Source of the DNA: Zetaproteobacteria bacterium CG1_02_55_237
GTDB taxonomy: Bacteria > Pseudomonadota > Zetaproteobacteria > Mariprofundales > Mariprofundaceae
Length of the DNA: 64,000 nt
Direction: 5' to 3'
Assembly: GCA_001871195.1 (NCBI GenBank)
Contig: MNXA01000044.1
Span: 1 to 64,000 of the forward strand
Shown here: positions 19,585 to 57,975 of the stretch, in pieces
Numbering within the stretch: the stretch's first letter is position 1
Layout of the letters: each line of letters begins with the position of its first letter
Position numbers and translations under genes: made by a program
Notes under the pieces: generated by a model
Databases searched by the model: none
What the model saw: only the letters and a program-made list of their open reading frames with translations
What the model was told of the DNA's origin: nothing

Positions 19585-20034
19585 ATGTCAGCCATCAGCA
19601 TTGAAGACAGCCTCCTTGCAACCGAATACACCGTGCGTCAGTCCGACCTGAATGGCTACAAACTGCTGCACGGTGGCCGATTGTTAACACTCGCAGATGA
19701 AATTGGCTTTCTGGCCGCACATCGATTCTGTGGCCACGACTGCCTGACTGTAGCCGTGCATAGGGCTCGCTTTCATCGTCCGGCCAGACTCAATGATAGC
19801 ATTAATCTGAAATCGCAGGTGGCGCTTACCGGCAGAAGCAGCATGTGGGTCTCCGTCACTGTGACAAACAGCAAGGGCGAACCCCTGATGGATGCCGTTG
19901 TTGTCTATGCAGCTGTTGATGATCAGCATCGACCCGTTCGGGTTAGCCCGATTCAGGGCATGAGTGAAGCGGGACAAACCCTGCAAGATCACATGCAGCA
20001 ACTAAAAACAAGCGTGCATGGAGATAAACCCTGA
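19585..20034 (+). CDS. Hotdog-fold acyl-CoA thioesterase
   Basis: A 149-residue single hotdog-domain protein. The N-terminal part has QSDLNGYKLLHGGRLLTLADEIG, which matches the acyl-CoA thioesterase pattern of an aspartate/asparagine, then HGG, then a central-helix Asp. The start at 19585 places the domain at the usual distance from the N-terminus but has a poor ribosome site. An upstream in-frame ATG at 19513 would add 24 residues without family character. It probably hydrolyses an acyl-CoA or acyl-thioester; the substrate is not evident. The stop overlaps the apparent CTG start of the next gene (CTGA). Confidence 0.75.
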   Translation: MSAISIEDSLLATEYTVRQSDLNGYKLLHGGRLLTLADEIGFLAAHRFCGHDCLTVAVHRARFHRPARLNDSINLKSQVALTGRSSMWVSVTVTNSKGEPLMDAVVVYAAVDDQHRPVRVSPIQGMSEAGQTLQDHMQQLKTSVHGDKP

Positions 20035-20783
20035 GCCCGACAAGCACTCCCGACACATTAAGACTGGCCAGTTATAATATTCAGGCCGGTATCGGCAGCC
20101 GGCACATGCGCCATATGCTGACCTACAGCTTCCGCTATGTACTACCCCACCGTCAGGCCATTGCCAATCTCGACCGCATCTCCGAGCAGATGCAGGGATT
20201 CGATTTGGTTGGCCTGCAGGAAGCAGACTGCGGCTCTTTCCGCAGCAATCAGATTCAGCAGGCACAATACATTGCCTTTCACGCGGATATTCCTTATTGC
20301 CTTACGCAGGTCACACGCGATATCGGCTCCATTGCCAGCATCGGCCTGGGCTTGCTCAGTCGCTTCCCCTGCACCCATGTGGAACAACACAGACTCCCTG
20401 CTTCGCGTCATGGTCGCGGTCTGTTAAAAAGTGTGCTTCATATTGCCGGCATGGAGGTGGCTGTTTTTGTGACCCATCTTTCGCTGAAACAGTCCAGTCG
20501 CGTCCGCCAGTTGCGCTATATTGCTCAGCATATGAATAAGTATGAACACGCCATTTTGATGGGGGATTTGAACTGCGAACCCGATTCCAGTGAGTTTCAT
20601 ATGCTGCTTGATGAGGCAACACTTCACCCGCATGGCAACCCGCCGGCATCCTTTCCAAGCTGGCAGCCACAACGCCGCATTGATCATATCCTGACGCGAG
20701 GAAGACCGCGCGTGACAAGTATCGAGGCAATCCCATTCGTCGGATCAGATCATCTTCCGGTAGTCGCCGAGGTGGCAATCTAA
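20031..20783 (+). CDS. Endonuclease/exonuclease/phosphatase (EEP) family hydrolase, apparent CTG start
   Basis: A 250-residue EEP-fold metal-dependent hydrolase. The conserved first strand LRLASYNIQAGIG with its catalytic Asn lies upstream of the first ATG (20106), so the gene must start earlier. The frame is open back to a TAA at 20025-20027. The only candidate near a ribosome site is CTG at 20031, with GGAG at 20020-20023 and a 7-base spacer, overlapping the preceding stop as CTGA. Other catalytic motifs are GLQEAD, MGDLNCEPDS, RIDHILTRG and SDHLPVVAEV. The substrate could be a nucleic acid, phospholipid or phosphoester. Coupling with the thioesterase gene is clear. Confidence 0.8.
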   Translation: MSPTSTPDTLRLASYNIQAGIGSRHMRHMLTYSFRYVLPHRQAIANLDRISEQMQGFDLVGLQEADCGSFRSNQIQQAQYIAFHADIPYCLTQVTRDIGSIASIGLGLLSRFPCTHVEQHRLPASRHGRGLLKSVLHIAGMEVAVFVTHLSLKQSSRVRQLRYIAQHMNKYEHAILMGDLNCEPDSSEFHMLLDEATLHPHGNPPASFPSWQPQRRIDHILTRGRPRVTSIEAIPFVGSDHLPVVAEVAI

Positions 20784-20996: not shown

Positions 20997-21070
20997 TGGC
21001 TGGGGGACGAGGATTCGAACCTCGGTTGACGGAGTCAGAGTCCGTAGTCCTACCGCTAGACGATCCCCCA
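20997..21070 (-). tRNA. tRNA-Gln, anticodon CTG
   Basis: The reverse strand reads as a 74-base tRNA starting TGGGGGATCG with acceptor partner CCCCCA, discriminator G and an encoded CCA. The anticodon stem ACGGA/TCCGT holds the loop CTCTGAC, giving anticodon CTG for CAG glutamine codons. The T-arm contains GGTTCGAATCC. Confidence 0.97.
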
Positions 21071-32887: not shown

Positions 32888-33001
32888 TAAATAAAACCTC
32901 CGTTGGCAGGGCGCGGCACTATAGCGTTTCTTGCCGAAAAATAAAGATATTTCTCGCCTTAAGCGCCCTGAAGTATCAACTGGCGCAAGAACGCCTGCGA
33001 A

Positions 33002-34121
33002 TCAAGCTTCGCCGCGCCGAACTCCCATCAACTGGGCCTGAATGAAGGCATCGATGTCCCCGTCGAGAAATGCCTGCGTATTGCCCGTTTCCATACCGGT
33101 GCGCAGATCCTTGATGCGCGACTGATCGAGCACATAGGAGCGAATCTGGTGACCCCAGCCGATATCGGACTTACCGTCCTCCATCTCCTGCTTCTCAGCA
33201 TTCTGTTTCTCCAGTTCGAATTCGTACATGCGAGCCTTGAGCATCTTCCAGGCAGCAGCACGATTCTTATGCTGGCTACGATCATTCTGGCACTGCACCA
33301 CAATTCCGGTCGGAATATGCGTCAAGCGGATGGCTGAATCGGTTTTGTTGATGTGCTGGCCACCGGCACCGGAAGCGCGGTAGGTATCGGTGCGCACATC
33401 GGATTCATCGATATCAATTTCAATTTCCCGGTCGATATCGGGATAAACAAACACGGAGGCAAAGGATGTGTGGCGGCGATTGCCGGAATCGAATGGCGAT
33501 TTGCGCACCAGCCGGTGAATCCCCACCTCGGCGCGCAGCAGTCCAAAGGCATATTCGCCCTTCACCGACACGGTCACCGACTTGATGCCGGCCTCTTCAC
33601 CCTCGGTGCACTCCATCAGCTCGGTGGCAAAACCCTTACGCTCGGCCCAGCGCAGATACATGCGCAGCAGCATTTCCGTCCAGTCCTGCGCTTCGGTACC
33701 ACCGGCTCCGGCATGGACTTCCAGAAATGCCGATTCGGCATCGTTCTCGCCGCCCAGCATCACTTCCATTTCGAGTGCTGCAATACCTTCCTCAACACTA
33801 TCCAGAGCATACGCAGCTTCACTCTGAATCTCCGTGTCGCCTTCATCGGCACCCATCTCATAGAGCATCACCTGCTCCTCAAGAGTCTCCAGTGTGTCTT
33901 TGTATGCCTTCAGCGGCCGCTCCAGACGTGTGCGCTTCTGCATCACCGCCTGCGCCTGCTCGGGATCGTTCCACAGTGTGGGATCCTCAATGCGCGCGGC
34001 AAGTTCGATCAGATCGTGTTCCTTGCCCTCAATGTCAAAGTGACCTCCGCAAAGCGGTCAAACGTGTGCCCATCTCTTCCGCTCGCGTACGAAATCCGGC
34101 AATCCGGTCTTCCATCGTCAT
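33002..34121 (-). CDS. prfB: Peptide chain release factor 2, programmed +1 frameshift
   Basis: RF2 encoded in two frames. Bases 34121-34038 give 28 codons starting MTMEDRIAGF after GGAG. The zero frame then meets TGA at CTT-TGA-C. Slipping +1 (skipping base 34037) continues from GAC at 34036 to 33002 for 344 more residues, a total of 372, close to the usual 365. The stop-codon-recognition tripeptide SPF is near residue 210 and the peptidyl-hydrolysis motif GGQ is near residue 255 (ASGAGGQHINK). RF2 recognises UGA and UAA, so the in-frame TGA autoregulates its synthesis. This is not a pseudogene. Confidence 0.96.
34034..34050 (-). promoter_or_regulatory. Programmed +1 frameshift site of prfB
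   Basis: On the minus strand an internal Shine-Dalgarno-like GGAGG is followed after TCA by CTTTGAC, the slippery Leu codon and TGA stop. The spacing equals that of the well-studied E. coli site. Low RF2 slows termination here and favours the shift. Confidence 0.95.
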
Positions 34122-56242: not shown

Positions 56243-56869
56243 TTATTTCTTGCATTCAACACCCAGACAGTTATCCCATCTTTCCCTTGACTCAACTGCC
56301 GCAAATGCAGGATTTTCAGCATCCCTAAATTTGGCTCTTCTAATATTCGAAAACCCAACATTAGCAAGCTCGACTTCAATGGATTTATAATCCCATCCCC
56401 AAAGATGATTACTATTCCCAAACCACTCAAAAACAAAACCTTTCAGATACCTGTTTCTGGATTCTCTTCCCAGCCCTGTTTCTCTAATGAAATTAATGGC
56501 TGCTTCCGGTGATTTGGTGCTAACATATCTTTGAATCGCAAATTCCAAATCGGGCAGAACAAGGCGAAACAGGCCGCCAACTTCGAGAATGCGCCATGTA
56601 TTCCTAAGCGCCTTACGGAAATCATCCAGTGGCAGATGCTCAAGAACGTGAGAACAATAAACACCCTTACATGACCCATCAGAAATCGGCAAACCTTCAA
56701 CAATATCCCCGAATTCAACATTGTGCGGAAATCGGGTTTTATTCTTCGTGTATAATTTCCCAACAAGGGGCATCCGCTCAAAATACAATGTCGGTGATGC
56801 ATCGAAATTTCGCCAATCCTGAGGGGCATTCCATCCGCAGCCATACTGCACATACATATTGCTACCCAT
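56243..56869 (-). CDS. Methyltransferase-like protein
   Basis: A 208-residue protein with a truncated-looking SAM domain. The N-terminus QYGCGWNAPQDWRNFDASPT resembles motif I of short predicted methyltransferases (GCG then FDASPT), and YCSHVLEHLPLDDFRKALRN with GGLFRLVLPDLE matches motif III regions. The glycine-rich loop GCG is shorter than in its neighbours. Activity is uncertain. ATG at 56857 is an alternative start. It follows the GT9 gene by 14 bases. Confidence 0.72.
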   Translation of the reverse strand: MGSNMYVQYGCGWNAPQDWRNFDASPTLYFERMPLVGKLYTKNKTRFPHNVEFGDIVEGLPISDGSCKGVYCSHVLEHLPLDDFRKALRNTWRILEVGGLFRLVLPDLEFAIQRYVSTKSPEAAINFIRETGLGRESRNRYLKGFVFEWFGNSNHLWGWDYKSIEVELANVGFSNIRRAKFRDAENPAFAAVESRERWDNCLGVECKK

Positions 56870-56883
56870 GAAGATGGAGACTC

Positions 56884-57975
56884 CTACGCAATTTCATACA
56901 CTAGGCTTTCGTTTATATCTTTTTCAGCCTGTCTTCTTTCGACAGGATCGTCAGGCTGACGGCACAACTTCTCTTTCACCGCAACAAGAACCTCTTCAAC
57001 AGTGATCGCGCTAACAGCATTACTATTGTCAGCTTCTTTTCCAACAATCACAATTGCTCCGTCCACTTGGGGCGCATTCTTGCTCACGCTAGTGTTTCCA
57101 AAAAGCGCAATCACCGGCGTACCAACGGCTGCCGCCAGATGCATAAGACCACTGTCGTTGGATATAAACAAATCACAGTTTGCAATGGCCCCTGCAGTAT
57201 TCATGATATCCAGCCGATTCACATAGCTCGGAATTGGATCATCCAGATCGTTCATGATCAGTTGCGCCACATCCTTATCATCCGGGCCGCCAAACAGAAT
57301 TGGAGAGAGTTCCATTTCCTTCATAAGAACATGAATTAATAGCGCAAATCGCTCAGCTGGCCAACGCTTTTCTCTGAGAGTATTACTACAACCTGGATGC
57401 AACCCCACGATAGGTCGCCGATTGCAGGTGGCGGCATGTTTCGTAGCCCATCTTGCGCATACTTCAACTGGCAACCTTAACTTCGGGCGCTCATAGGCAA
57501 CATGGTGCCCAAGCGCTCGCAACAGGTCCAACCGCCATTCCACTTCGTGCGCATCCGGCGCGATGGGAACAGCGTGACTCAACACACAATCCAGTGCCGT
57601 TCCAGATGCGTGCCCAATACATTCCTTCGCTTTTGCAAGCCATACAAAAAGGGCTGATTTAACCGATGGTGACTCAAGGATAAATAGTATATCCGCTTTT
57701 TTCTTCCGGATGACCAATATCAACCGCAGCATTTCCCATGCGTACTTTATACGCGACAGCCAACCACCATTTTTCGATTTCCTTGGGCTGAGGCTATTGT
57801 TATATAACACAAATTCGCCAATCAATCCCTGCCCATCAAGTAAATCTATTACAACTCTCTGGGTCACCACCATCAAGATTCTAGCCGTGGGATATGATTT
57901 TTTCAGATTGCTGAGAAATGGCAACAGCAGGAGGGTGTTGCCAATGCCGTATGGATTGAAGATAACGATGTTCAT
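56884..57975 (-). CDS. Glycosyltransferase family 9 (heptosyltransferase-like)
   Basis: A 363-residue GT9 enzyme. The N-terminus IFNPYGIGNTLLLLPFLSNL fits the family, and the donor-binding half has VGLHPGCSNTLREKRWPAERFALLI, then ISNDSGLMHLAAAVGTPVIALFG. GT9 includes LPS heptosyltransferases and O-antigen ligase-associated enzymes. The start overlaps the O-antigen ligase stop by 4 bases (ATGA). Heptose as donor is not certain in a polysaccharide locus. Confidence 0.88.
   Translation of the reverse strand: MNIVIFNPYGIGNTLLLLPFLSNLKKSYPTARILMVVTQRVVIDLLDGQGLIGEFVLYNNSLSPRKSKNGGWLSRIKYAWEMLRLILVIRKKKADILFILESPSVKSALFVWLAKAKECIGHASGTALDCVLSHAVPIAPDAHEVEWRLDLLRALGHHVAYERPKLRLPVEVCARWATKHAATCNRRPIVGLHPGCSNTLREKRWPAERFALLIHVLMKEMELSPILFGGPDDKDVAQLIMNDLDDPIPSYVNRLDIMNTAGAIANCDLFISNDSGLMHLAAAVGTPVIALFGNTSVSKNAPQVDGAIVIVGKEADNSNAVSAITVEEVLVAVKEKLCRQPDDPVERRQAEKDINESLVYEIA

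Follow-up and report, generated by a model that had tools for sequence, protein, structure and literature searches.

At which codon does translation of the EEP-family (endonuclease/exonuclease/phosphatase) gene of Zetaproteobacteria bacterium CG1_02_55_237 (G000) begin? This gene (positions 20031-20783, plus strand; 250 codons and a stop, assigned by Pfam PF03372 and predicted fold) lies in the window, the whole 64,000-nucleotide stretch of DNA that was analysed. The open frame spans 20028-20783: it is closed by an in-frame TAA (20025-20027) one codon 5' of a CTG, after which it reads ACC CTG AGC CCG. When the frame was scanned from this TAA, ATG, GTG and TTG were absent until the ATG at 20106-20108, as the initial annotation had claimed for the region 5' of the strand with the catalytic Asn. 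The only codons one base off ATG before the Asn codon are CTG 20031 and CTG 20064. The CTG at 20031-20033, the putative start, forms a 4-nt CTGA overlap (20031-20034) with the TGA stop (20032-20034) of the upstream gene on the same strand. That gene (19585-20034, plus strand, with a predicted start position) encodes a hotdog-fold acyl-CoA thioesterase (4HBT; Pfam PF03061, E-value: 1.3e-15). A GGAG Shine-Dalgarno (SD) core (20020-20023) precedes the CTG with a 7-nt spacer, and CTG 20031 is the sole near-cognate codon ahead of the EEP domain. The CTG, its GGAG and the overlap that had first been noted can thus be read directly from the sequence; the geometry is that of coupled genes, and the two genes may well be coupled. 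A tRNA-Gln gene (CTG anticodon; 20997-21070, minus strand) is convergent to the EEP gene.

The EEP protein and its junction in relatives

The CTG-started protein matches PF03372 over residues 14-241 (E-value: 7.2e-19; 68.8 bits against a cut-off of 24.5). Eleven aligned relatives share invariant N16, Q63-E64, G178-D179-N181 and S239-D240-H241, so that the EEP motifs QE, GDxN and SDH are all present together with the Asn of strand 1. The structure model (pLDDT 87, pTM 0.88) places the first strand at residues 9-16, ending in Asn16 (AAT, 20076-20078), and inclusion of this residue requires a translation start before 20076. A phmmer search against PDB sequences gave no match. Foldseek returned the EEP fold for the model, with top matches including (neutral) sphingomyelinases and TDP2 (query TM-scores of about 0.63-0.76). 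By profile and predicted fold, the gene is a member of the EEP superfamily with putative phosphodiesterase or phosphatase activity.

Relatives of the window genome, including same-genus Zetaproteobacteria (PEWE01000006.1 and JAJRWP010000029.1 among them), differ at the junction, so that all four NTGA forms are found at one position: ATGA in G001, TTGA in G014, GTGA in G022 and CTGA in G000, G002 and G013. CTG occupies the start position in three genomes of two genera. The ATGA of G001 falls exactly at the position of the G000 CTGA; comparison of orthologues at this junction had been proposed as a test of the start, and this one favours CTG. The SD core and spacing recur as well, with GGAG at 7 nt in both G002 and G013. 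Because the gene upstream of EEP in G013 is rmuC (named from its sequence) rather than a thioesterase, CTGA with GGAG occurs over a different neighbour too. A TTG lies three codons past the CTG in G002, and in G013 a GTG lies within the first strand.

G000 is a draft assembly of 54 contigs, but an assembly error or pseudogene confined to it is the least likely explanation of all, given that CTGA recurs in the independent genomes G002 and G013 and that the frame is intact over 250 codons with a model pLDDT of 87. Another near-cognate codon could in principle serve as the start, since CTG 20064 and ATT 20079 are each one base off ATG. This is scarcely more plausible: CTG 20064 sits within the LRLASYN strand, the first of the EEP fold, ATT 20079 is past the Asn, and the SD spacing and stop overlap common to the relatives belong to CTG 20031.

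A start at ATG 20106, or at another canonical codon further downstream, would leave the upstream part untranslated. ATG 20106 is the first canonical start in the frame and the protein truncated there still matches PF03372; however, the profile match then begins at position 19 instead of position 2. Such a protein would lack beta strand 1 and, of the invariant positions, Asn16 alone (QE, GDxN and SDH would all be kept), and ATG 20106 is therefore judged not to be the start. Relatives also carry ATG, TTG or GTG at the position of CTG 20031. The Asn strand, which lies 5' of the equivalent of ATG 20106, is present in 11/11 aligned relatives. This reading is very improbable.

Equally improbable is a fusion protein in place of a new start, made by ribosomes that shift frame by -1 where the upstream gene ends. 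The thioesterase and EEP frames do overlap in a -1 relation, and the CCC preceding TGA could partly re-pair. However, the CTGA junctions share no slippery heptamer, their terminal codons differ by family and species, the upstream partner of EEP is not conserved (thioesterase or rmuC), and other species have free-standing ATG starts. Slippery-site fusion was rejected on the lack of a common heptamer and the varying terminal codons. The NTGA junctions of relatives and the conserved Asn strand instead argue for the CTG start at 20031 that had been suggested initially.

CTGA junctions in the genome and the class

A survey of 4-nt overlaps between coding-like frames covered 2.24 of the 2.33 Mb (96%) of G000. 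Most unfiltered CTGA sites are CTGATG, i.e. ordinary ATG starts. With the requirement that no other canonical start lie within 20 codons upstream or 10 codons downstream, there remained 100 ATGA, 21 GTGA, 10 TTGA and 8 CTGA overlaps. Three of these eight CTGA junctions are preceded by an SD core at a distance of 5-8 nt: those of EEP, of a DUF498 gene after secF and of an SLT lytic transglycosylase gene. The remaining five are without an SD core, and in them a canonical codon occurs 10-29 codons into the frame. The EEP CTGA junction with its SD core exceeds chance. A second survey, based on upstream coding scores and insensitive to short extensions, gave no additional convincing CTG starts; it did pick up DUF498 and prfB (release factor 2; window 33001-34121, minus strand), whose usual programmed +1 frameshift, GGAGGTCACTTTGAC, served as positive control. 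A CheW-like frame near the end of a contig (G000:C26, minus strand, about 56625-57089) has no canonical start before its conserved part and could be due to an assembly break or frameshift.

The DUF498 gene (G000:C28:57772-58161, plus strand) overlaps secF as CTGA, with GAGG 7 nt upstream. Within the class, the same CTGA overlap is found in 18 of 60 species, and ATGA, GTGA or TTGA in 0 of 60; the other 42 loci have no secF overlap and a canonical start nearby. The 18 species span two families, G039 being the member of another family. For 15 of the 18 genes, the distance to the next canonical codon is at least 19 codons, and in G033 the DUF498 frame is wholly devoid of ATG, GTG and TTG. In Gammaproteobacteria (n = 30, from different families), canonical codons are available to DUF498, mostly at about residue 6. 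The last codon of secF is CCC (Pro) in all 18 overlap species, which were picked by NTGA overlap and not by N = C. CCA, CCG or CCT would leave SecF unaltered and turn the CTG into ATG, GTG or TTG. In 78 columns of secF the fourfold box is invariant, and the third base is invariant in just one of them, where it is the C of CTG (median majority across columns 0.56; this statistic, too, ignores shared ancestry). Because this C is uniquely invariant among comparable fourfold sites, the alignment suggests that selection keeps CUG at the secF-DUF498 junction.

The SLT gene (G000:C44:20810-21496, minus strand) likewise has a CTGA overlap with GGAG 7 nt upstream. The 42 SLT overlaps found in the class comprise 37 CTGA (from 37 species), 3 TTGA and 2 ATGA. 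On the tree this distribution requires five changes, with CTG on either side of the deepest fork under a midpoint root, itself an arbitrary choice. In 13 species the following canonical codon is no closer than 16 codons, and many other SLT genes have one 5-12 codons in; with these, and with the nearby TTG in the EEP gene of G002, single junctions are ambiguous. The N-terminal codons (LNAxELRxRL) vary mostly at the third position (mean entropy 1.66 bits vs 0.94 and 0.74 bits) and so behave as translated sequence.

Across the class, 49/58 CTG junctions have an SD core at a distance of 5-8 nt, against 3/8 other NTG junctions (Fisher p 0.008, a value that ignores shared ancestry). CUG looks conserved among species as the putative start of EEP, DUF498 and SLT genes. 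The rarity of non-ATG/GTG/TTG starts, which had been raised at the outset, holds in general (PMC5622118); within the class, however, CTG recurs at CTGA overlaps and is conserved in DUF498 and SLT. The literature searched contained no account of bacterial CUG starts being conserved, and the EEP CTG is one case of a broader class pattern without earlier description in that literature.

A model for initiation at CUG

In our view, EEP translation probably begins at CTG 20031, through SD-assisted termination-reinitiation at the 4-nt overlap, and CUG is probably a weak start that has been retained. The proposed sequence of events is as follows. The ribosome finishing the thioesterase at UGA would be held in place by GGAG, re-phase one base back onto CUG and initiate EEP there with fMet-tRNA. 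As the ribosome would already be positioned and the SD sequence is good, a start codon with a mismatched first base may suffice, at low yield. CUG would then be a minor yet regular start in the class, one that at least three families of genes use where start and stop overlap as CUGA. The CUG reading is based on sequence geometry, conservation, codon interchange and the constraint on C, from which we infer fMet initiation, coupling and low yield.

Published work bears on both sides of this model. AUGA with an upstream SD sequence supports coupled reinitiation (PMC9955659), and S. aureus has conserved AUU and AUA starts with strong SD sequences (PMC13009471). Counting against a CUG start, CUG complexes are less stable than those of AUG, GUG and UUG (PMC11497404), and in mycobacteria CTG is not selected as a start even with an SD sequence (PMC4633059).

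The strongest alternative, though still an unlikely one, accepts the CUG start and has the 30S subunit initiate there de novo, guided by the SD sequence in the ordinary way; the overlap with the stop would then be incidental and the coupling step wrong. The strong, well-spaced SD sequences at 49/58 CTG junctions fit this reading. However, CTG is found with an overlapping upstream TGA in all three families (in a search that was built on overlaps and could miss free-standing CTG starts), and those DUF498 genes that do not overlap secF have a canonical start close by. Coupled reinitiation at the overlap is the reading that we retain.

A wider proposal is more doubtful, and we offer it with less than even confidence: in Zetaproteobacteria, CUG may serve, where stop and start overlap, as a genuine fourth NUG start codon, with selection preferring it over AUG (e.g. 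at secF-DUF498) to fix a low coupled yield, perhaps by means of a class-specific initiator tRNA with a short D-loop. The D-loop of the initiator tRNA is two bases shorter in 57/57 Zetaproteobacteria matched than in 42/42 Gammaproteobacteria matched, which is a correlation only. The G000 initiator tRNA (L045 1501-1575, on G000:C36) keeps the three G-C pairs of the anticodon stem. A relaxed anticodon stem was ruled out, the GGG/CCC pairs being intact and invariant in 57 class genomes (the search pattern required them). Separately, infC of G002 (L057, minus strand, near 1240 of the reversed locus) has an apparent AUU/AUC start after AGGAG, as in infC of other bacteria.

Relation to known systems

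The EEP junction resembles 4-nt stop/start overlaps that use termination-reinitiation (PMC10666635, PMC9955659) in its TGA/start overlap, its SD sequence in the last codons of the upstream gene and its -1 downstream frame. It differs in having C as the first base of the start; ATGA and GTGA are the forms that PMC10666635 names, with no mention of CTG. A weak start with a strong SD sequence is likewise kept across species in infC and in Staphylococcus cvfC1 (AUU) and ccpN (AUA) (PMC13009471), where non-canonical starts give about 10% of the AUG yield. Unlike the AUU and AUA of cvfC1 and ccpN, the start here is CUG, lies at a stop overlap, belongs to other kinds of gene and extends across a class. 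A study of 36 genome triplets (PMC5622118) shares the replacement of AUG, GUG or UUG by CUG at an orthologous start. Only 2 of its 61,358 ancestral AUG starts had switched to CUG, whereas the CUG described here persists across genera, with a C that seems to be under selection. Coupling at a stop/start overlap with a conserved non-canonical start would thus be of a known kind, and the CUG version appears to be a new variant.

As far as we know, CTG is not among the start codons that widely used bacterial gene finders accept, and genes that start at CUG would therefore be truncated or missed. The ATGA, GTGA, TTGA and CTGA at one junction form a natural series which, together with two deeply conserved CUG starts, makes it possible to test whether terminating ribosomes are relaxed in their choice of start and whether weak starts are under selection. 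CUG, usually dismissed as a start codon, here looks like a real and preserved start signal.
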